DNA of 63,969 bases. It comes from a virus. Shown piece by piece: positions 45,654 to 56,578 of the stretch (the stretch's first letter is position 1; the number at the start of each line of letters is the position of its first letter). Position numbers and translations under genes: made by a program. Location: positions 1-63,969 of IMG/VR virus record IMGVR_UViG_3300034111_001063; one strand, written 5' to 3'. The notes below the pieces were generated by a model. It saw only the letters and a program-made list of their open reading frames with translations, was not told where the DNA came from and did no database searches.

Positions 45654-46568
45654 TCAGGCTTTCTCCATCACCATGACGGAACGGGGGAAGTAGATGGCTA
45701 CCCCACCGTGGCGGGCGTGCGCAGGCACGGTATATTCCAGGCCCTGGAGTTGAGGAGGGAAAAACTCCAGTGGCTGGGGGAGGTGCATCTCCAGCTTGTC
45801 CGGGTTACGCTCATAGGTCATGATCCGGTCTTTAGACAAGAACCCGCCGGATTTAGAGGCAGTAAGCTCATTGATGGGTTCAATGTCCTTAATAACCTCG
45901 TTGGTATTGAGGAAAAACTCCATGACAGTGGTGTCCGAAGCCGTCCCGAGCTTCATTGTGGAGATCTTTCGGAACACATTGTACGGAACCAACATGGTGT
46001 CTGGTTGTTCTTTCATGTTGCTGTTCTCGACGATCCGGGTTACCGGTTCATTGAGGAGTTCGAGAACTTCATCGGCGGTGATGCCGGACGTGTCGAACCA
46101 CTTATCAGGTACGATCTTGTCGAGTTGATCGGAGTTGAAGAAGCCGCGAAGGCCGGCAGCAGGATCTCCGAAGTAGGAAATGCGCTGCATAGTTTCTTCA
46201 TAGACGCGACGCACAGCGTTAGCGCGGCGTTGCTCCAGGTTTGTGTTGGGGACTTCAGCCGCAGCTCGCAGCTCCTGGACGGTGTAGCCAAAGCTGGAAC
46301 CGTAGGATTCAACCTTGTGGGTTACTTCCTTACGGAACACATCAGCGCGGGGGAGATCCTTTGCCTTATCGGCAATTCGCCGCATGGAGCCTTGTTGGTC
46401 GTAGATCCTATATGTGTAGGAATCCTTCCCATTAGACACCTCGCTGTTAATGGGGAGTACACTAGCGTATTTGATGTCGGCATACTCGACTTCAAAAGCC
46501 CTAGTGATGATATGCTCAAGTTCCCTCGCGAGGAAGAAACCGTGGTTGTCGAGGCGTTCATTAGACAT
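45654..46568 (-). CDS. Major capsid protein (DUF2184 family)
   Basis: 304 residues. Helical N-arm (FFLARELEHIITRAFEV), ASVLPINSEVSNGKDSYTYR and the FGYTVQELRAAA core match DUF2184 capsid proteins of HK97-like fold. It follows the cement and protease genes as expected. Residues 163-194 are closely copied in the plus-strand ORF at 49846-50130 (24 of 32 identical). Good codon use and an intergenic hairpin just upstream (CCTC/GAGG at about 46570) fit high expression. Confidence 0.9.
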   Translation of the reverse strand: MSNERLDNHGFFLARELEHIITRAFEVEYADIKYASVLPINSEVSNGKDSYTYRIYDQQGSMRRIADKAKDLPRADVFRKEVTHKVESYGSSFGYTVQELRAAAEVPNTNLEQRRANAVRRVYEETMQRISYFGDPAAGLRGFFNSDQLDKIVPDKWFDTSGITADEVLELLNEPVTRIVENSNMKEQPDTMLVPYNVFRKISTMKLGTASDTTVMEFFLNTNEVIKDIEPINELTASKSGGFLSKDRIMTYERNPDKLEMHLPQPLEFFPPQLQGLEYTVPAHARHGGVAIYFPRSVMVMEKA

Positions 46569-47311: not shown

Positions 47312-48622
47312 TCATCGCCTCTTAGAAGCAGTCAGCGGTTTCTGCCAACTATTGTTGGTTTTCTGCTTGTAGCTATCGGAGGATGCTGCAGCATCGCGCC
47401 GTTGGACACCGCGAAGGGCCGTGCGCAGCTTGCCGGTGGAATCAGCCGCATCGGTTCGGGAAGCTGGTTCGGCCTCGGGGGGATCTTCGGCATCAAGCGT
47501 GGCCAGGGCCCCCTCAACCCGGCCCCTCATTTGGGCGACCTCCATCTCCTCATCTGGGGCCTCACCGAAGATGTTTTCGTAGGCTTGGATGTACAACTCA
47601 TTGGCCTCGATGCCGTCGAAGACGAAGTCGTCTTCAAAGGCGGGTGCGAGGAGTTGAAGAGTGTCGAGGCGGGCGGCTACTAGGGTGTCCAACCGGGAGG
47701 CTGGGATTTGAGCGAGAACCGCGTCGATGTTGTCTTCATCGAGGTGAATCTCACTGGGTTCCCCGGTATCAATCGTGGCCTGGAGCCCATCGGCGCGACC
47801 CTCGGCAGCCTCCTTTTCAGCCTCCAGGTCAGAAAAATCACTCTGCAGGGTATCTAGCTTTTCCTGCAGAGTGGAATTAGCAGTGCGCAGTTCAGTGAGG
47901 GCCTTGCTGGAATCCCTCACATAGGCTTGCACCAGCGGAGCATATTCAGGGGCAACCTCAACATCGACTCCATCGAGAGTGATACGGGCCATAACGGGGT
48001 TCGCGGGGGGTACGGGCTCGGGGGAATCGAGGAGTGCTTGATCAAAAGATACCGCTGCCGTAGAATCCATTCGATCTAACAGCAGCCTCACCTCTGGGCC
48101 AGCACGTCCTTTAGGGACAATGGCGATGTGGTTGACGCGGATATTGCGTTGGACACCGTCATAGGACTCGCCTGATGGTGTTTGACCGGGGGTAGGGTCA
48201 TAATCGACCCGGTAGCCGGCGGAGACTTCTACAGCGTGATCGGGAGAATCCTTACGTTGGATGTTGTCGATGGATTTTTGGTCAGTAACAAGAAGCGCTA
48301 CTTCAACAAAACCGTCGCTGAAGTGGACATGCGAGCCGGCATGTCCGATTTGATACATCTTTGTATTCTCTGCATCGAGTAGCTGCGGAGGATGACGCCA
48401 AGTAACTGGCTTCATCCCGAAGGATGCTAGGGTTTCTGGCTTTCCTACTTCCTCTTCCGGGCGGTACTCAGTTTCGACCCTGCCGTCAGCGCGGCGATAT
48501 TTCTGGAGGCCAGTGCGGGCGGTGCGGGCCCGGACCTGGAGGTATCCCGACTCCGGGTCTATCTTGCAGCCGACGATAGGCAGCGAGAGGAAGTCGTAGC
48601 GGGTAGCTGTTGCTAGGCTCAT
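47312..48622 (-). CDS. Capsid maturation protease with scaffold (DUF2213-like)
   Basis: 436 residues. Residues 1-195 fit DUF2213 proteases (VTWRHPPQLLDAENTKMYQI, GFVEVALLVTDQKSIDNIQR, VSAGYRVDYDP, VNHIAIVPKGRAG). Residues about 230-280 are a coiled coil (ALTELRTANSTLQEKLDTLQ and on) and the rest is acidic, as in a fused scaffold. It should assemble the prohead, then cleave itself and other head proteins. Confidence 0.8.
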   Translation of the reverse strand: MSLATATRYDFLSLPIVGCKIDPESGYLQVRARTARTGLQKYRRADGRVETEYRPEEEVGKPETLASFGMKPVTWRHPPQLLDAENTKMYQIGHAGSHVHFSDGFVEVALLVTDQKSIDNIQRKDSPDHAVEVSAGYRVDYDPTPGQTPSGESYDGVQRNIRVNHIAIVPKGRAGPEVRLLLDRMDSTAAVSFDQALLDSPEPVPPANPVMARITLDGVDVEVAPEYAPLVQAYVRDSSKALTELRTANSTLQEKLDTLQSDFSDLEAEKEAAEGRADGLQATIDTGEPSEIHLDEDNIDAVLAQIPASRLDTLVAARLDTLQLLAPAFEDDFVFDGIEANELYIQAYENIFGEAPDEEMEVAQMRGRVEGALATLDAEDPPEAEPASRTDAADSTGKLRTALRGVQRRDAAASSDSYKQKTNNSWQKPLTASKRR

Positions 48623-48658
48623 GCACCAGTTTACGGCTGGCGTTTAGGGGCAATCAGC

Positions 48659-49708
48659 CTAGTAGCTTTTTAATAAAGCGGTCTCTAAACTTCTGTAATA
48701 ACCTCTTACAACTTTGTCTACGTGGTCGGTCTCATAAGTGCGTAAAGCGTTTTCTAGAGGATCCCACTGAGGAGCCCACCGGCTTTCAAATGTCTCTATT
48801 GCGTATTCTGATAAACCTACGCGGCGTGGTACTTGAGTAAGCTCGTTGATGAAATCGCGGGCGCTAGTTCGATTTTCTGTAGCGAACTCAGCTAGGCCGA
48901 AGTCGATGAATTTAAGGCTTCTGGTTTTTGGGTTAAACATTATGTTTTTTAAGTGCCCATCGTTGTGTACGAGACCACTCATGTGTAAAGAGCGATAGAG
49001 GTCTAACATTTGGCGTTTTAACTGTAGTGGTGCGGTGTATTTAAGCGAGAAAATACTAGAACTTACCCCATGCGTAGATAAAGGGGAATAATTGTTCAAG
49101 TGCTCCATGACCAATACCCGGTCAGTAGCTTTGTATAGCTGAGGGGATGGCACATTATTGATGTTAGCGTGCCTTAGTATCTCACCTTCAGGGAGTAAGC
49201 TTTCTGTGGGGCCGCTCAGGAATTTATTAGGCGTCCCCCCGAGGTCGTTGTTCTTTAAGTATTTTATACCGTATTTATTAGACGGGTGGACAACATAATT
49301 ACCGTAAGCACCTTGGCCCCCTAGACATCGTGGAGTCGGAACAAAGTCATCTTCCCTAATCCAGTGATCAATCTTGGATGCTGCACATGCAATTGCGTTG
49401 GCTTTCTTGTTATCTTCAAAGACATCCCACTGTTTGCCGCGCTTCCGCGCCTCAGCTTCGATCCGATCCCAGTCCTCACCAGGGGCGGTGAATCCCTTCC
49501 AATCGGGGTCGCGGCGAACGAAACGGCGGGCGGCGGAGATGCCTAGGACTGCGATCCCGGCCCCAAGGGCGACTTTGCCGATCAGGCTCGGGGTGATTGC
49601 TGGGTTAGAACTGGGTGCAGTGGTCTTTTTGGAGCATTTCTTGTTGTCTGGTATGCCTGACGCACCGCATTTCTTGTCGAATCTTAGTGAAGCGGTGGTT
49701 ATGGGCAT
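48659..49708 (-). CDS. Virion-region protein kinase with Cys-motif leader
   Basis: 349 residues. Residues 8-28 carry the shared leader LRFDKKCGASGI with the second Cys at 25, followed by a hydrophobic segment (41-62). A complete kinase-like core follows: GxGxxG loop GQGAYGNYV (about 131-140), Lys 149, Glu near 177, hinge RVLVMEHL, catalytic HNDGHLKN (248-255) and IDFG (268-271). All ATP and Mg ligands are present, so it is probably active. Placed between protease/scaffold and the moron. Packaging and injection are inferred, not shown. Confidence 0.75.
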   Translation of the reverse strand: MPITTASLRFDKKCGASGIPDNKKCSKKTTAPSSNPAITPSLIGKVALGAGIAVLGISAARRFVRRDPDWKGFTAPGEDWDRIEAEARKRGKQWDVFEDNKKANAIACAASKIDHWIREDDFVPTPRCLGGQGAYGNYVVHPSNKYGIKYLKNNDLGGTPNKFLSGPTESLLPEGEILRHANINNVPSPQLYKATDRVLVMEHLNNYSPLSTHGVSSSIFSLKYTAPLQLKRQMLDLYRSLHMSGLVHNDGHLKNIMFNPKTRSLKFIDFGLAEFATENRTSARDFINELTQVPRRVGLSEYAIETFESRWAPQWDPLENALRTYETDHVDKVVRGYYRSLETALLKSY

Positions 49709-49771
49709 GATTACCGGGGGTATGTATGCTATTCTAGCGAGGCACCTGCGTGGACACTTGTCTTGGGTTTT

Positions 49772-49849
49772 ATGAATAAAGAGCTTAATGCTGCTTGCAC
49801 TACTACAGGCATGACTGCTGATGAAATGCTTGCACTACTACAGGCATGA
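49772..49849 (+). pseudogene. 5' fragment of the capsid-derived gene, cut by a 35-bp duplication
   Basis: ATG 49772 opens MNKELNAACTTTGMTADEML and stops after 25 residues because the tandem copy shifts the frame. Removing one copy restores an ORF from 49772 through 50130, and TTTGMTADE then aligns with DTSGITADE of the capsid protein. Its stop overlaps the next ATG (ATGA), so it may act as a leader for re-initiation. Confidence 0.6.
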
Positions 49850-49867
49850 CTGCTGATGAAATGCTTG
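49798..49867 (+). repeat. 35-bp perfect tandem duplication
   Basis: Two exact copies (49798-49832 and 49833-49867) bounded by TGCTTG at 49792, 49827 and 49862, which suggests slippage through 6-nt microhomology. 35 is not a multiple of 3, so it breaks the reading frame. The copies are identical, so the event is recent. Confidence 0.95.
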
Positions 49868-50130
49868 AACTACTAAACGAGCCGGTTACGCGCATCGTAG
49901 AGAACTGTAACATGAGGGAGAAACTGGACACTATATTGCTTGATTCTAAGCAGTTTGCGTATATACTATCTGAACGCACCAAGGCGGTAATGAATCGCGT
50001 CTATCACAATACGAGACCTAATTATCTACCTATCTTGATTAGCGCCTCCCCCACTATTGGACGTAAACGCCGCAACCGTCGCGCTCGGGGGCGTAAGCTA
50101 GTAGCTACTCGCCAAAAAGCTTGTGCTTAA
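49846..50130 (+). CDS. Capsid-protein-derived peptide with basic tail
   Basis: 94 residues. Residues 1-32 (MTADEMLELLNEPVTRIVEN and on) match capsid residues 163-194 at 24 of 32 positions, with most codon differences synonymous. DTILLDSKQFAYIL continues the alignment with DTMLVPYNVFRKIS; similarity fades by residue 65. The last 25 residues are very basic (GRKRRNRRARGRK). It is on the opposite strand to the capsid gene and overlaps the deaminase gene by 8 nt. A decoy for capsid-sensing defences, an assembly inhibitor of rival phages, or a minor head protein are possible. Confidence 0.75.
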   Translation: MTADEMLELLNEPVTRIVENCNMREKLDTILLDSKQFAYILSERTKAVMNRVYHNTRPNYLPILISASPTIGRKRRNRRARGRKLVATRQKACA

Positions 50131-50764
50131 GAACGACATCTGGATAGGACAGCAAGCTGCCGCTGGGATGATCGAGCCTTATCAGCAGGAGCTAGTGCGG
50201 AAGGTCAAAGTAGCCGAGCGCTTCCAGAGCGAACGTGCCTCGCTCCTGGATCTTGATTGGCCGCCAGCCGAGGTTCCGGTGCTGAGCTTTGGCACAAGTA
50301 GTTATGGCTACGACATTAGGTTGTCAGCCGCCGAATTTAAGATTTTCCGCCATGTCCCCGGCACGGTCATGAACCCCAAGCGGGCCAATCCTGCCAATCT
50401 GGAGCCGGCCCCTCTTCATCAGGATGAGGATGGTCGCTACTTCATTCTGCCGGCGCATACCTACGGTCTCGGGGTAGCGCTGGAGAAACTACTGGTGCCG
50501 CCGAATATCACTGTGATCTGCTTGGGGAAAAGCACTTACGCCCGGTTGGGGATCATTGTGAATACCACGCCGGCAGAAGCGGCATGGGAGGGGCACCTAA
50601 CCCTGGAGTTCAGTAATTCTTCTGGTGCTGATTGCCGTATTTATGCCGAAGAGGGCATCTGCCAGCTGCTTTTCTTTGAGGGGGATCCCTGTGAAACTAC
50701 TTATGCGGATAGGACTGGTAAATATCAATATCAGCCGGAGCTGGTAACATTAGCGAAGGTTTGA
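50123..50764 (+). CDS. dcd: dCTP deaminase
   Basis: 213 residues from GTG 50123; the start is set by homology (DIWIGQQAAAGMIEPY is the usual Dcd N-terminus). SYGYDIRLSA, GKSTYARLGIIVNTTPAEA and the Glu in GHLTLEFSN are the substrate and catalytic elements, and ICQLLFFEG with YADRTGKYQYQ close the fold. It converts dCTP to dUTP for dTMP synthesis. Plus-strand, coupled to the capsid-derived ORF, so both form a moron-like cassette inside the minus-strand head genes. Confidence 0.9.
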   Translation: MLKNDIWIGQQAAAGMIEPYQQELVRKVKVAERFQSERASLLDLDWPPAEVPVLSFGTSSYGYDIRLSAAEFKIFRHVPGTVMNPKRANPANLEPAPLHQDEDGRYFILPAHTYGLGVALEKLLVPPNITVICLGKSTYARLGIIVNTTPAEAAWEGHLTLEFSNSSGADCRIYAEEGICQLLFFEGDPCETTYADRTGKYQYQPELVTLAKV

Positions 50765-50781
50765 TTCTTACTAGAAGCGGA

Positions 50782-51090
50782 TCAGCAGTTCCATTTCCGT
50801 AACGTCTTGTTGATCCGTGAATCTGGGTTATTGGCGGTTTTCGCGCTGGTTAGCTTACGCTTCATTCCCGACATGCGGGCACAGAACCTCCGTCGTCTTT
50901 CTGCTCTCGCTGATCCGGGTTTGAGCTTGGAGGGGTCGGTCGTTACCGCGAGGGAGAGCTTAGAGCCTGGATGCTGCTTGCGGTAGGAGGCGATGCCTGC
51001 GGCGTTAAGGCCGCCCTCGGGGTTTTTGCCTTCCTTGCGCTGCCAGGCGGGGGATTTGTCAAGGCGGATGGTTAGGGGTGTGAGCAGCAT
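50782..51090 (-). CDS. Small basic phage protein (DUF6321-like)
   Basis: 102 residues. LDKSPAWQRKEGKNPEGGLN, FCARMSGMKRKLTSAKTANN and the end SRINKTLRKWNC follow a pattern recalled from small basic proteins of marine and freshwater phages. Its start (TIRLDK) resembles the LRxDK leader of neighbouring genes. GAGG precedes the start. Probably virion-associated or DNA-binding. Confidence 0.65.
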   Translation of the reverse strand: MLLTPLTIRLDKSPAWQRKEGKNPEGGLNAAGIASYRKQHPGSKLSLAVTTDPSKLKPGSARAERRRRFCARMSGMKRKLTSAKTANNPDSRINKTLRKWNC

Positions 51091-51095
51091 CAGCC

Positions 51096-51650
51096 TCAGT
51101 TACCGCCGAAGAGTCGGCGCTTCTGTCTGATTAGCCCGATCTGGGTTTTACGCGCAGCGCGTCGTGTTGAAGCAACCCTAGCTTGAGCTTTAGCCATTGC
51201 GGGAGCTACTGCAGCTTTTGTCGCCTTCCGTGCCCTTGCTCTAGATAAAGGTACAGGGCCTTGAGACAACATCCCCCGAGCTTGTTTGTTATTCATAGAC
51301 CGTGCCATACTGGCTTGTGAGTTGCTAACTTGATTTGTCCATGGGTCTGGAATGCCACCAGCGGAATTGGTAGGACGAGGATTTGACATGCGGCTAGTCG
51401 CACGTAAGTTCTTCGCAACTCTTAGGTTAGACATAGCATTTTTCTGCATTCCTCGATATTTCATAGCACCCACTGTACCTGCAGCAATACCACCAGCAAC
51501 GGCGGCTACTTTAAGGCCGGTCTGGACGTTTTCATTACCCAGGGCGGATTTGACAGTACCGACTAAGCCTTTATTGCACTTCTTGCTCTCAGCGATCCCG
51601 GAGGCACCGCACTTTTTGTCAAAGCGAAGGGTAGATGGTGTGAGTGTCAT
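51096..51650 (-). CDS. Cys-motif membrane-interacting protein 1
   Basis: 184 residues from ATG 51650, which has a perfect GGAGG 8 nt upstream; the longer ORF overlaps the previous gene. Leader LRFDKKCGASGI with the second Cys in AESKKC, then KSALGNENVQTGLK and a Gly/Ala hydrophobic segment (VAAVAGGIAAGTVGAM), then a very basic C-terminus. It is a tandem paralogue of the next protein. Probably packaged in the head. Confidence 0.65.
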   Translation of the reverse strand: MTLTPSTLRFDKKCGASGIAESKKCNKGLVGTVKSALGNENVQTGLKVAAVAGGIAAGTVGAMKYRGMQKNAMSNLRVAKNLRATSRMSNPRPTNSAGGIPDPWTNQVSNSQASMARSMNNKQARGMLSQGPVPLSRARARKATKAAVAPAMAKAQARVASTRRAARKTQIGLIRQKRRLFGGN

Positions 51651-51651
51651 T

Positions 51652-52392
51652 TCAATTGCCTCCTTTATTGGCTCTTCGGCGGCGAGCGGCGGAAATCGGG
51701 GCTTCTTTTTTGAGGTCACCAAGGTATTCCCGAAGGTTATTTCTATACCCTTTAGCCTCTATTTGTGCTGTTTTCACATTTAGTGCTGAACCTGTGCTCC
51801 AGTATGTAGAGTTTGCTTTCTTTGTTGCTCCCAGCTTTGCGCTGATTTTGCCACGAGTCGCCTTAAACTTACCTACCGTGCGACCAATGTCTTTTACTTT
51901 TTGCCTCATTCCTCGGTATTTCATAGCGCCTACTGTACCTGCGGCGATGCCGCCAGCAACGGCGGCTACTTTAAGACCGGTCTGAACATTTTCATTGCCA
52001 AGGGCAGATTTAACAGTACCTAGAACTCCTTTATTACACTTCTTGCCTTCAGCGATGCCTGAGCGTCCACACTTCTTATCCTCCCGCACACTCAACACAC
52101 CACGAATATAACCCCTACTACGTTTGTGGATCCCAAGTTCACAAGCATCGAGATATTCCATAGGAGTAAGTACAGCGTCCATTGCTGCTTTAGCTGCGCA
52201 GCCACAAGAGCCACTCTTCTTACCCTTCTTCATGCAAGCGGCGCAGGGCTTCTTACCTTTCCCGTGGGGGGCATCACCGTACTCGGGGGACTCCCCTTTT
52301 TCCATCTTCGAAGACTCCATTCCTTCCTCCGCAGCACCACCTTCGGCGGGCTTTTTACGACCCTTTTTAAGGAATGCTGCGGGGATCGGCAT
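51652..52392 (-). CDS. Cys-motif membrane-interacting protein 2
   Basis: 246 residues. N-terminus Lys/Glu-rich with two Cys pairs (CAACMKKGKK, SCGCAAKAA), then LTPMEYLDACELGIHKRSRG, a stretch I recall near phage portals. Residues 102-122 carry the leader VREDKKCGRSGI and the second Cys. The segment after it (GTVKSALGNENVQTGLKVAA, GTVGAMKYRGM) is nearly identical to protein 1, at the DNA level too. C-terminus basic. Confidence 0.65.
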   Translation of the reverse strand: MPIPAAFLKKGRKKPAEGGAAEEGMESSKMEKGESPEYGDAPHGKGKKPCAACMKKGKKSGSCGCAAKAAMDAVLTPMEYLDACELGIHKRSRGYIRGVLSVREDKKCGRSGIAEGKKCNKGVLGTVKSALGNENVQTGLKVAAVAGGIAAGTVGAMKYRGMRQKVKDIGRTVGKFKATRGKISAKLGATKKANSTYWSTGSALNVKTAQIEAKGYRNNLREYLGDLKKEAPISAARRRRANKGGN

Positions 52393-52424
52393 GGCCTGGA
52401 TAGATAGGGATTCTCCCCCTCAGG

Positions 52425-53314: not shown

Positions 53315-56300
53315 TTAGTTAGAGGAGGTAGCGGGCTCGGGGGGAACTGCCTTAGCCTCGGTGGCATTCTGCTGTACTTCAGCTCGTAGGGATTTACTAC
53401 TACGCTTTACCTTGTTAGGATCGTAACCTCCGTACCATACATCAATCATGCGATCTTCGATTTCTGAGCGCAGATCACTTAACGCTTGCGGCTTATTTTT
53501 GTTGAGCGCCTTAGAATAGCGGTTCATGACTTCGTCACTCTTATCCCCAAATAAAATTTTAAGGTCACCTTCCATAGGCTTATTATCCGAGACACGCCAT
53601 AAAACTTCATTAGTCAGCTCTTTAGAGCGTTGCCTATCAACTGTTAAGTAAGTATACGCTTCAGTCCTTAACTGCTTATCGAACATATAGCTATTCCTAC
53701 CGTCTTCTTTAAGCCCATGGGGAATACCCTCATTCTGCAGCATACGGACAGGGCTGCTAGCAAAAGCGCGTTTACCCATAGTTGCGTAAAACATATCTCC
53801 TTTGCTGACCCATGTTCGCATATTCTCATCTGTATGACTAAAGACCCCGAAAGTGGGGCCTGCTACATTAACAACTTTGACATCTCTATAACCCATTTCA
53901 GCTAGAATAGCTAGTGTCTCTGACGCCACATTTCCCCCATTGCTGTAGGCTAGCATGTGGACAGGCTTGCCGGTTAACCGCCGTTGTGCTGCGACAAAAG
54001 CTGCTGCACGTACTGCATCAGGATTAAACCCACGAGTTTCTATATTACCTCGCAAATAATCCATCTGCTTAAACGCATTCTTCATCTCTACAGCCGTAGT
54101 AGCCGGCTTCTGAGCTACTTTAGGGAGCATGCCTATGCGGGCTTTCCGCGTCTTCATGTCTAGATCGTCGGCACCTTGCTTAATAGGTTGGGAGATTTTG
54201 TTAGCAAAAGGGAGTATATCATGCTCGCCCCAGATCTCTCGGAAAGCTCCACCTTCAGCCATCAAATGACTACCCTGACCACGCTTAGTGAAAGTACCAT
54301 CGTCTGCATAGGAGAGCATGACTACTGCGCCTTTGCTATTCTGTGTTTGCCCATAAAATGCTGGGGTATTATCCATACCACTAAACCCAGTATCATATCC
54401 TTTATCTTTGAAGTTGTAGGTAGATGCTTCAAACGGAGTAACGTCTTTGACATCCTTACCTAAGCGCTTCGCCGCTTTCTCGTTAAACTCGCGCACCATA
54501 TCCTTAGCCATAGCCTCGGCGTCTATAGCAGATCTGGACACATTTCTCCTATAGGCGAATACCTGCTGAGACTTCACCCCGAGTGCGAGCCCTACGGCTG
54601 TGGCGGCCACTGCTCCAGCACCGATAGCCACATTACGGAGAGTATTGTCCACCTCTTTTGGGGTTGCTGCAGATTGCCCACCTCCGCCAGAAGAGACCTG
54701 AGCGGCCAATGTTTTCTTAGAACAGTTCCTGTTATCAGGAATACCGGATTTGCCGCAGCGCTTGTCCTGTCTAATAGTCGCAGCGAAAGCCTGGAAATAA
54801 GTATCACCGCGCTCGGGGGGCTTTCTTGCTTCCATGCGGCGGCGCTGGATTACTACACGGGCAGCCGCCTCCGCTGACTTCTGGTTTTTATACAAAGGCT
54901 TGCCATTAGGCAATGTCCTACCCATTAGGGCTTTAAGCACGTCTAGATAAGACTGCTGCTCCTCTACATTAGTGAATTTGAAGCTCTCCCTAGCCCGTCG
55001 AGGACGGTTCATCGGAGGTATTGGCGGAATAGCTCTACCGGTACGTGTGTTTAGCTCATTAGGGGGTCTTATTTGAAGCCCCTCGAATGCACCGGTCCCC
55101 TTGAGTATTATCAAAGCTTCGGAAGGGTCTTTGATCGGCCTACCTGCATGCTCTGAGGCGGCCTTTTGAATAGTCAGGCTCGGGGCGGACCACAATGTAT
55201 TAACACTGGCGGGAGAGCCATTAGTTTGAAAATAATGCTGGTTAACTAGATCCGCAGAGTATGGGCCTTTAACCGCCTGCCTACCTGCTGTAGGGTAGAG
55301 TCGCGTAGCAAAGAACTCCGCATGCCCCTGCATCGCGTTCTGCATTACTGGGTATTGGTCTAGAGGTACGGATTTCCTTAAGCCTGTTGGCCCGTAGACT
55401 TTAGGTAAAGAATTAATGATAGACTCGTAGAAAGTATCATAGCTTGAGATTGTCTTACCATAGATAGTTCTTGCTGTGCCAATTGCTCGGAAATTGGGGT
55501 GCAGCGTACCTAGGAGCTGGCTACGGGCTTGTTCTCTGGCTGCTGGGGTTAGCTGTTGAGCATCGAGCAGCGTGTTAGCTAAGCTATGGCGATCTTCTAA
55601 TTTACCTAGGTTAAAGCCCCGGTCTTTAGCGTAATTAGTCAACGTCTTGTGCTCAGCATCCAATTGATCTGCGATCTGCTGCACCAGCTTCACGCCTGAC
55701 ACTTCAGCCCCGCCAGTCACCTTGTAATGAGTTCTAAGAAAGTCCTCCCCCGAGAGCGTCGCGAATTGATAACCATCACCGACTCTATAGATTTGCTGCT
55801 CTTTCAAGCGTGGCGTGCTCCACATCGCTTTGTATGAGGCTTTATGCCACTCACCAAAGTCTGTGTAGGCGCTAGGACTTACATTTTTAACCCGCTGGCC
55901 TACAGCCGAAAACGGGGAGTAGTCTAAAGGGCTGGTTTTAAGAATATCAGAAGTATCAGGTAATCCGTAGTTTCTACCAGCTACTGCTCCTACGCCATTG
56001 CGACGGCGCACTAATTCAGCGACAGCATTACGAGCTTCAGTTTTGGTACGCGCACGGGCTGGATGTAGATCTAGCACCGAATGCAGTGCATTACTTACAC
56101 TGTCATCAATGTTTTTACCAATACCTTCTCTGTAGCTGCGGATATTGCTTAAGATGCCGTGGGCGCGGACTCCACCCCCGAGTACGGCCAGAGCTACACC
56201 GATGCCTATAGACCCTTGAACTAGAGCAGCTTGTAGTTCTTTTTTCTTCTTAAGATCTTGAGGGGATGCTTTAACAGCACCGCGAATGACGGCTTTTCTA

Positions 56301-56578
56301 CCGCCTTCTAATTCTGAGAAGTTACCAGTAGTTATGCCTTTTCTAAGACGACCGAGCCCTCTTTGTGTGCTGGCGAGTGCAGCTAATGGATCACTACCTC
56401 TTCCCGCAGCTTTTAAATGTCCATCACCGCCTTCCCCCTTTAGCCGGCAGTCCCATTCAGGAGGAATGCAGCGAGATCCACAACGCCGATTAGGCGGCTT
56501 ACACGCAATGGTGTTTCGAGTCTTAGCGTCGATCCTCGATTGAGTAATCAGGAAAGTAACCGTACGAATGTTGGTCAT
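53315..56578 (-). CDS. Large two-part virion protein with alpha/beta-hydrolase-like domain
   Basis: 1087 residues, ATGA-coupled to the portal, the usual place of a head-morphogenesis (MuF-type) or ejection protein. Residues 26-44 hold a leader variant (RRCGSRCIPPEWDC) with hydrophobic stretch near 115-135. A full second leader (IRQDKRCGKSGI...C) lies near residue 604, followed by a Gly/Ala hydrophobic segment (about 646-675). Then comes a hydrolase-like domain with nucleophile elbow MLAYSNGGN (Ser about 876) and KVVNVAGPTFGVF. It looks like two leader-bearing proteins fused. Substrate unknown. Confidence 0.65.
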   Translation of the reverse strand: MTNIRTVTFLITQSRIDAKTRNTIACKPPNRRCGSRCIPPEWDCRLKGEGGDGHLKAAGRGSDPLAALASTQRGLGRLRKGITTGNFSELEGGRKAVIRGAVKASPQDLKKKKELQAALVQGSIGIGVALAVLGGGVRAHGILSNIRSYREGIGKNIDDSVSNALHSVLDLHPARARTKTEARNAVAELVRRRNGVGAVAGRNYGLPDTSDILKTSPLDYSPFSAVGQRVKNVSPSAYTDFGEWHKASYKAMWSTPRLKEQQIYRVGDGYQFATLSGEDFLRTHYKVTGGAEVSGVKLVQQIADQLDAEHKTLTNYAKDRGFNLGKLEDRHSLANTLLDAQQLTPAAREQARSQLLGTLHPNFRAIGTARTIYGKTISSYDTFYESIINSLPKVYGPTGLRKSVPLDQYPVMQNAMQGHAEFFATRLYPTAGRQAVKGPYSADLVNQHYFQTNGSPASVNTLWSAPSLTIQKAASEHAGRPIKDPSEALIILKGTGAFEGLQIRPPNELNTRTGRAIPPIPPMNRPRRARESFKFTNVEEQQSYLDVLKALMGRTLPNGKPLYKNQKSAEAAARVVIQRRRMEARKPPERGDTYFQAFAATIRQDKRCGKSGIPDNRNCSKKTLAAQVSSGGGGQSAATPKEVDNTLRNVAIGAGAVAATAVGLALGVKSQQVFAYRRNVSRSAIDAEAMAKDMVREFNEKAAKRLGKDVKDVTPFEASTYNFKDKGYDTGFSGMDNTPAFYGQTQNSKGAVVMLSYADDGTFTKRGQGSHLMAEGGAFREIWGEHDILPFANKISQPIKQGADDLDMKTRKARIGMLPKVAQKPATTAVEMKNAFKQMDYLRGNIETRGFNPDAVRAAAFVAAQRRLTGKPVHMLAYSNGGNVASETLAILAEMGYRDVKVVNVAGPTFGVFSHTDENMRTWVSKGDMFYATMGKRAFASSPVRMLQNEGIPHGLKEDGRNSYMFDKQLRTEAYTYLTVDRQRSKELTNEVLWRVSDNKPMEGDLKILFGDKSDEVMNRYSKALNKNKPQALSDLRSEIEDRMIDVWYGGYDPNKVKRSSKSLRAEVQQNATEAKAVPPEPATSSN

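Follow-up and report, generated by a model that had tools for sequence, protein, structure and literature searches.

Why should a virus carry, in inverted orientation, a diverged piece of its own capsid gene at the start of a small basic protein? The stretch of DNA in which this arrangement lies (the window) is IMG/VR record IMGVR_UViG_3300034111_001063 over positions 1-63,969, its full 63,969 bases. An earlier note on the same DNA described the arrangement and offered, among other readings, a capsid decoy. Judged from its sequence, the plus-strand ORF at 49846 is a real chimera rather than a simple capsid decoy: the capsid piece ends abruptly, and what follows belongs to a family of small virus proteins that have an arginine-rich peptide in common. 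The features discussed are collected in Table 1.

The capsid origin of the N-terminus is supported at several levels. The capsid gene is assigned to PF09950 by profile match (E 7.8e-51), and a tblastn search within the window aligns the chimera to it with E 4.5e-12 and 26 of 40 residues identical. In an ungapped alignment, residues 1-32 share 24 identities with capsid residues 163-194, so that the likeness reported earlier, an inverted and diverged capsid-gene piece inside a small basic protein, is borne out. Profile comparison (A4 versus A3) supports the homology of residues 1-34 with E 3.7e-5 and a probability of 71. These residues are related to the PF09950 / phrog_264 capsid protein, but they cover only 47 of the 251 profile positions (108-154), score 16.9 bits against a family cut-off of 26.8, and are followed by a remainder that is unrelated to that protein. 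The weaker likeness said to reach about residue 65 is ruled out by shuffling: it stops near residue 34, and residues 35-94 match the capsid no better than chance, with 479 of 2000 shuffles scoring equal or better. The homology changes sharply at residue 34/35. The base composition of the ORF is not unusual (GC 0.467, a value equalled or undercut by one third of 360-base windows), and the last 30 residues carry a net charge of +11. Among PDB structures, 8hdt is closest in sequence to the window capsid; the AlphaFold model of this capsid has a mean pLDDT of 32.

Table 1. Coordinates of the chimeric ORF, its parts and its surroundings in the window.
Feature	Position	Strand	Remark
Chimeric ORF, 94 codons	49846..50130	+	Capsid piece joined to basic-peptide family half
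Capsid-derived codons 1-34 of the chimera	49846..49947	+	24 of the first 32 residues equal capsid residues 163-194
Half belonging to the GRKRRxRRARG family	49948..50130	+	Matches L094 protein
Conserved basic peptide SPTIGRKRRNRRARGRK	50047..50097	+
25-codon ORF MNKELNAACTTTGMTADEMLALLQA	49772..49849	+	Start of upstream gene fused in frame to chimera N-terminus; 49772 is its ATG
Perfect 35-bp tandem duplication	49792..49861	+	Units 49792-49826 and 49827-49861
Deletion junction	49786..49787		About 557 bp of L004-L007, with two further small ORFs, missing
dCTP deaminase gene	50123..50764	+	8-bp overlap with chimera; omega 0.09
Kinase-like gene	48659..49708	-	Left cassette border
DUF6321 gene	50782..51090	-	Right cassette border
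Major capsid protein gene	45654..46568	-	PF09950 / phrog_264
Capsid gene segment resembled by the chimera	45981..46082	-	Residues 163-196
Head maturation protease gene	47312..48622	-	PF09979 (DUF2213), family of the L008/L009 piece

Of the 32 codons, 11 are the same in both copies, 13 carry silent differences only and 8 encode a different residue. The silent differences, put at about 14 in the earlier note, are confirmed in number to within one, but the selection on the peptide that had been read from them is unsupported: synonymous sites are saturated, and across four haplotypes the chimera has an omega of 0.73 (likelihood-ratio test against 1, p=0.52; pairwise values 0.38-0.78). A codon model leaves the donor lineage unplaceable, with four attachment trees within 0.52 lnL. 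Given this saturation and the unplaced donor, the silent changes may predate the capture and have arisen while the segment was still part of a capsid gene. The capsid part of the chimera alone gives omega 0.38 (p=0.36) and the non-capsid half 0.93 (p=0.89). Purifying selection is seen in the upstream sibling ORF (omega 0.41, p=0.004, three haplotypes); the middle ORF has an omega of 0.47 (p=0.019) and the dCTP deaminase one of 0.09 (p=8e-14). The 94-codon frame is open and the basic motif kept in all eight records that hold it, with a single R-to-H change in L004.

The chimera and the dCTP deaminase form a cassette whose strand is opposite to that of the head genes. The search of related phages for this pairing, proposed in the earlier note, recovers it in seven related contigs. 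Six of the seven relatives carry a longer chimera, an ORF of 113 residues, preceded by two small ORFs. The first of these has a basic peptide of its own and measures 93 residues in L005 and 154 in L009; the second, middle ORF, of 90 residues, has no match in phages. The idea that the middle ORF (L005 5679-5951) derives from the cement protein, and with it a reading of the cassette as a decayed duplicate of the entire protease-cement-capsid segment, was dropped, since 106 of 500 shuffles were as good. In the window and in L003 this DNA is missing, about 557 bp relative to L004-L007 and more relative to L008 and L009, and across the junction the beginning of the first ORF continues in frame into the chimera. 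The 35-bp duplication, present in L003 as well and absent from L004-L009, breaks the frame after this fusion and leaves the 25-codon ORF, whose stop overlaps the chimera ATG at 49846 (ATGA). In L018 and L020 the DUF6321 and kinase homologues overlap directly with no cassette between them, an arrangement compatible with gain and with loss of the cassette alike. A promoter and terminator scan of 49500-50900 yielded nothing above shuffles.

Several features of the surrounding region are recorded here in their own right. The kinase-like protein on the left border matches Pfam Pkinase with E 3.4e-8 and, weakly, PD-T4-6. A second kinase-like gene, recognized by eye, directly follows the deaminase in L005 (6950-7840) and L009 (6914-7804), at the place occupied by DUF6321 in the window. 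A short cysteine module resembling RxDKKCGxSGIxxxKKCxK recurs in otherwise unlike head-region proteins, the kinase-like ones included; it is found at 48659-49708 (-), 51096-51722 (-) and, near residue 600, 53315-56578 (-), and also in L018, L020 and L005. Such a module could serve as a common tag for targeting or metal binding.

The second half of the chimera finds its counterpart elsewhere. Residues 35-94 match a free-standing small protein, L094, with none of 2000 shuffles as good, and the match survives removal of the motif, residues 35-68 again outscoring all 2000 shuffles. The gene of L094 sits at a different genome position, upstream of the terminase genes, on the contig that also carries L020; the capsid of that virus is 89% identical to the window's. 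The constant part of such proteins is [I/F]GRKRRxRRARG, after which most members have R; in the window it reads IGRKRRNRRARG at 50056. Outside this peptide, the 35 proteins compared are highly variable.

A degenerate motif scan of viral contigs returned 43 stretches, 8 in seven contigs of the window group and 35 elsewhere, the latter including near-identical copies on some contigs. A relaxed pattern raised the number of stretches to 65; of the 22 added, 15 read as members and 7 as chance, and in all the motif occurs in about 50 IMG/VR contigs outside the window group. Among 50 distinct motif DNAs (three taken from loci judged to be chance matches), A occupies the free position in 36 and R follows the motif in 43, and the codons vary. 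Residues kept while codons vary indicate constraint on the basic peptide at the protein level; part of the invariance is built in, since the search patterns demand the fixed residues, and most members come from exact-pattern scans, which miss members with an altered motif. The motif as a pure DNA element is unsupported by the varying codons, though AGG is preferred at two of the arginines.

With a stricter pattern, bacterial and archaeal species genomes gave one stretch, in a Cyanobium assembly, where it lies on a contig of 59.5 kb. The peptide as a host protein was rejected, this assembly being the only one with the motif among 201 sampled genomes of its family. In the phage collection, the closest capsid (52.5%) belongs to Synechococcus phage S-CBS4, and the motif-bearing contigs probably derive from viruses of picocyanobacteria. 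Motif genes lie beside or about 1 kb from integrase or recombinase genes in L113 (3013-4197) and L126 (4752-6035), and the family may therefore also occur in temperate viruses. The dCTP deaminase is no constant companion: none was seen within 2.5 kb at 31 other loci among ORFs of at least 90 residues. The 65,085-bp record G004 bears a perfect 127-bp direct repeat at both ends (L154 1-127 and L157 4959-5085), a sign of a complete genome.

Neither Pfam nor NCBIfam offers a family for the motif half, and at E 0.1 none of their families matches more than 3 of the 35 members. Apart from the capsid, portal and protease families, matches in these collections are weak and touch one or two of the 35 members, the best in NCBIfam being mycobacterial RNase E (one member, E 0.0014). 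In PHROG, three of ten F-type members weakly match phrog_9697, annotated as unknown (E 0.0055 at best). The string GRKRRARRARG was not found in the literature searched, a body that takes in few subscription papers. On these comparisons, the GRKRRxRRARG proteins are an undescribed, strongly conserved family of small virus accessory proteins.

The capsid piece, present in eight records including the window, is one of several head-gene pieces in this family. When the 35 motif proteins were scanned against PHROG, L106 and L119 matched portal phrog_146 (E 1.3e-7 and 6.9e-8), and two members, taken to be the same, matched PF06381 in Pfam (best 1.2e-6). This portal piece of 150 bp (50 codons) has sharp ends, is fused to the basic peptide and occurs in four contigs. 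Compared with the portal gene of the L119 record, G001, its nucleotide identity is 89.3% in L119 and 92.7% in L106, while the portal of L106's own record, G002, is only 85.2% identical to it. Against the G001 portal, the piece has NG86 omega values of 0.60 and 0.78, and 0.22 in a three-taxon maximum-likelihood fit that includes the portal branch.

The third case, a protease piece in the upstream protein of L009, matches phrog_530 with E 1e-5 and PF09979 with E 0.0013 (one member). It shares 39% over 31 residues with the window protease, a score above all 500 shuffles, and is closer (42%) to similar ORFs of other viruses; a phage search brought up head-region or hypothetical proteins from Gordonia and Synechococcus phages, none of them significant (E 4-7). 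The protease match in L008 and L009 is thus a probable one, weaker than the portal case. By our own count, 29 of the 35 motif proteins have no head-protein match at E 0.1, and 10 further members have none at E 0.5. The N-terminus of L186, guessed by eye to be another capsid piece, was rejected: it has no PHROG match and no capsid match in phages, and in ten records it recovers only the gene itself, in three of them. Small proteins carrying head-gene pieces were not described in the titles and abstract beginnings searched, which cover few subscription papers.

In 16 records the motif proteins were compared with the genome that encodes them, and three of these, the window, G001 and G002, gave strong matches (E <1e-10). 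The other 13 gave no self-match, or one of E 1e-6 or weaker in repetitive-looking sequence; several of the 16 are fragments, so that absence of a self-piece or donor proves little. Partial self-copies are commoner in motif ORFs (3/16) than in others (25/859; Fisher p 0.012, or 0.075 with sister viruses merged), where the 25 were counted by hand after setting aside a full-length pair of paralogues and the donor genes in the three motif-gene cases. Another partial self-copy is formed by the adjacent ORFs 51099-51758 and 51655-52419 (-), with 73% identity over 79 shared residues. Distances from the capsid and portal donors to their recipients are 3.4-3.8 kb.

In the AlphaFold model of the 113-residue form, helices span residues 22-75 and 90-112, the second covering the basic motif, with block pLDDT values of 90 and 85 over residues 91-110; the whole-model pTM of 0.23 indicates no global fold. 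We consider the chimera, at a probability of about one half, to be a member of a modular accessory family in which a basic helix binds nucleic acid and a replaceable region takes up head-gene scraps. The capsid and portal pieces would have come from nearby head genes through local illegitimate recombination. The basic peptide would be alpha-helical, bind RNA or DNA and carry the conserved activity, and the N-terminal part would be an exchangeable helical partner, its capsid piece either tolerated or recruited. That the capsid piece itself adds an effect is putative.

An arginine-rich helix with a variable partner is reminiscent of lambda N, HK022 Nun and HIV Tat, which are arginine-rich RNA-binding peptides. 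The chimera has a short arginine-rich predicted helix and a variable remainder as these do, and by this analogy nucleic-acid binding would be the likeliest conserved activity. Its motif presumably is more conserved between viruses than the motifs of N proteins, and a search of 48000-52000 around it gave no Rfam match. Intergenic repeats of similar layout (GTGAC..ATTGT.AAC, then GGGTTACAGT and a GGAGGG-type site) lie near motif genes in L164, L165, L174, L181 and L182 and may represent a class of virus promoters. Their reading as a shared RNA target was rejected: they look promoter-type, and two patterns derived from them are absent from the window.

Capsid fragments are also known from host defence. 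In T4 Gol/Lit, a piece of the capsid protein is the sensed element that triggers the defence. There, as with CapRel, the capsid sets off a response of the host, whereas the piece described here is a separate virus gene. For CapRel, the capsid protein is reported to be the sensed trigger, again unlike the chimera (PMC9712102). Against PADLOC defence models the chimera gave only ThsB (E 0.0099, 13.8 bits, 31 residues), which is not a match, and two sibling proteins, the middle ORF, the deaminase and the L114 and L119 proteins gave none. Tab is a prophage blocker of tail assembly, according to its abstract, and virus-made inhibition of virion assembly is what it would share with an interfering chimera; it acts on the tail, and the abstract does not call it a virion-gene fragment (PMC10884400). 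SaPI rcm (PMC12409344) and PLE (PMC10945586) provide small proteins that redirect capsid assembly of another phage, but these proteins are satellite-encoded.

The modular reading has to be set against an origin without function, in which local copying into a small dispensable gene left a decaying, functionless remnant in the window. This is a serious rival, if on the unlikely side. With donors within 4 kb, local copying accounts for both the origin of the capsid and portal pieces and the bias towards head genes, and other genes of these viruses are partially self-copied too (the 25 of 859 ORFs without the motif). The chimera itself shows no measurable constraint, its omega being indistinguishable from 1, and in the window and L003 it has been shortened by the deletion of about 557 bp and carries the frame-breaking duplication; these facts count against any functional reading. 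Yet the frame has stayed open with its motif in 8 of 8 records, one R-to-H change aside, the upstream sibling ORF is under purifying selection, and self-copies are enriched in motif genes, if less clearly with sister viruses merged.

Interference with assembly, the virus-made counterpart of capsid-derived restriction, would have the head piece dock on the capsid, portal or protease partners of a rival while the basic helix tethers it to nucleic acid or spoils assembly. The family search did find pieces from three head proteins, and the portal piece together with the probable protease piece makes a link to head assembly more plausible than a single case would. The portal piece of G002 fits the portal of G001 better than its own, and two members lie near integrase or recombinase genes, surroundings that are a usual place for exclusion genes. 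Neighbouring donors, however, are a plain cause of the head-gene bias, the portal pieces evolve fast (by NG86; the maximum-likelihood fit gives the lower value), and most motif proteins lack a head match, which together leave interference quite unlikely. A minor internal head component, whose capsid-like part rides into the prohead while the basic tail binds DNA, would combine the head piece with the strong positive charge of the C-terminus; the gene is encoded opposite to the head genes, its capsid piece of 34 residues falls short of a full capsid domain, and this reading is very improbable.

In conclusion, the strong conservation of about 12 residues in small proteins of otherwise unlike viruses points to one strong target of the basic peptide. 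The bolder proposal, that picocyanobacterial viruses carry mobile small proteins in which a constant arginine-rich helix with an exchangeable segment is repeatedly loaded with capsid, portal or protease pieces to inhibit the head assembly of rivals, is improbable at present. If true, it would be a virus-on-virus counterpart of restriction factors built from captured viral structural genes. Head-gene pieces recurring beside one basic peptide provide a rare set of cases for asking whether scraps of structural genes are made into new proteins by viruses, and whether such scraps act on competitors or are merely tolerated.
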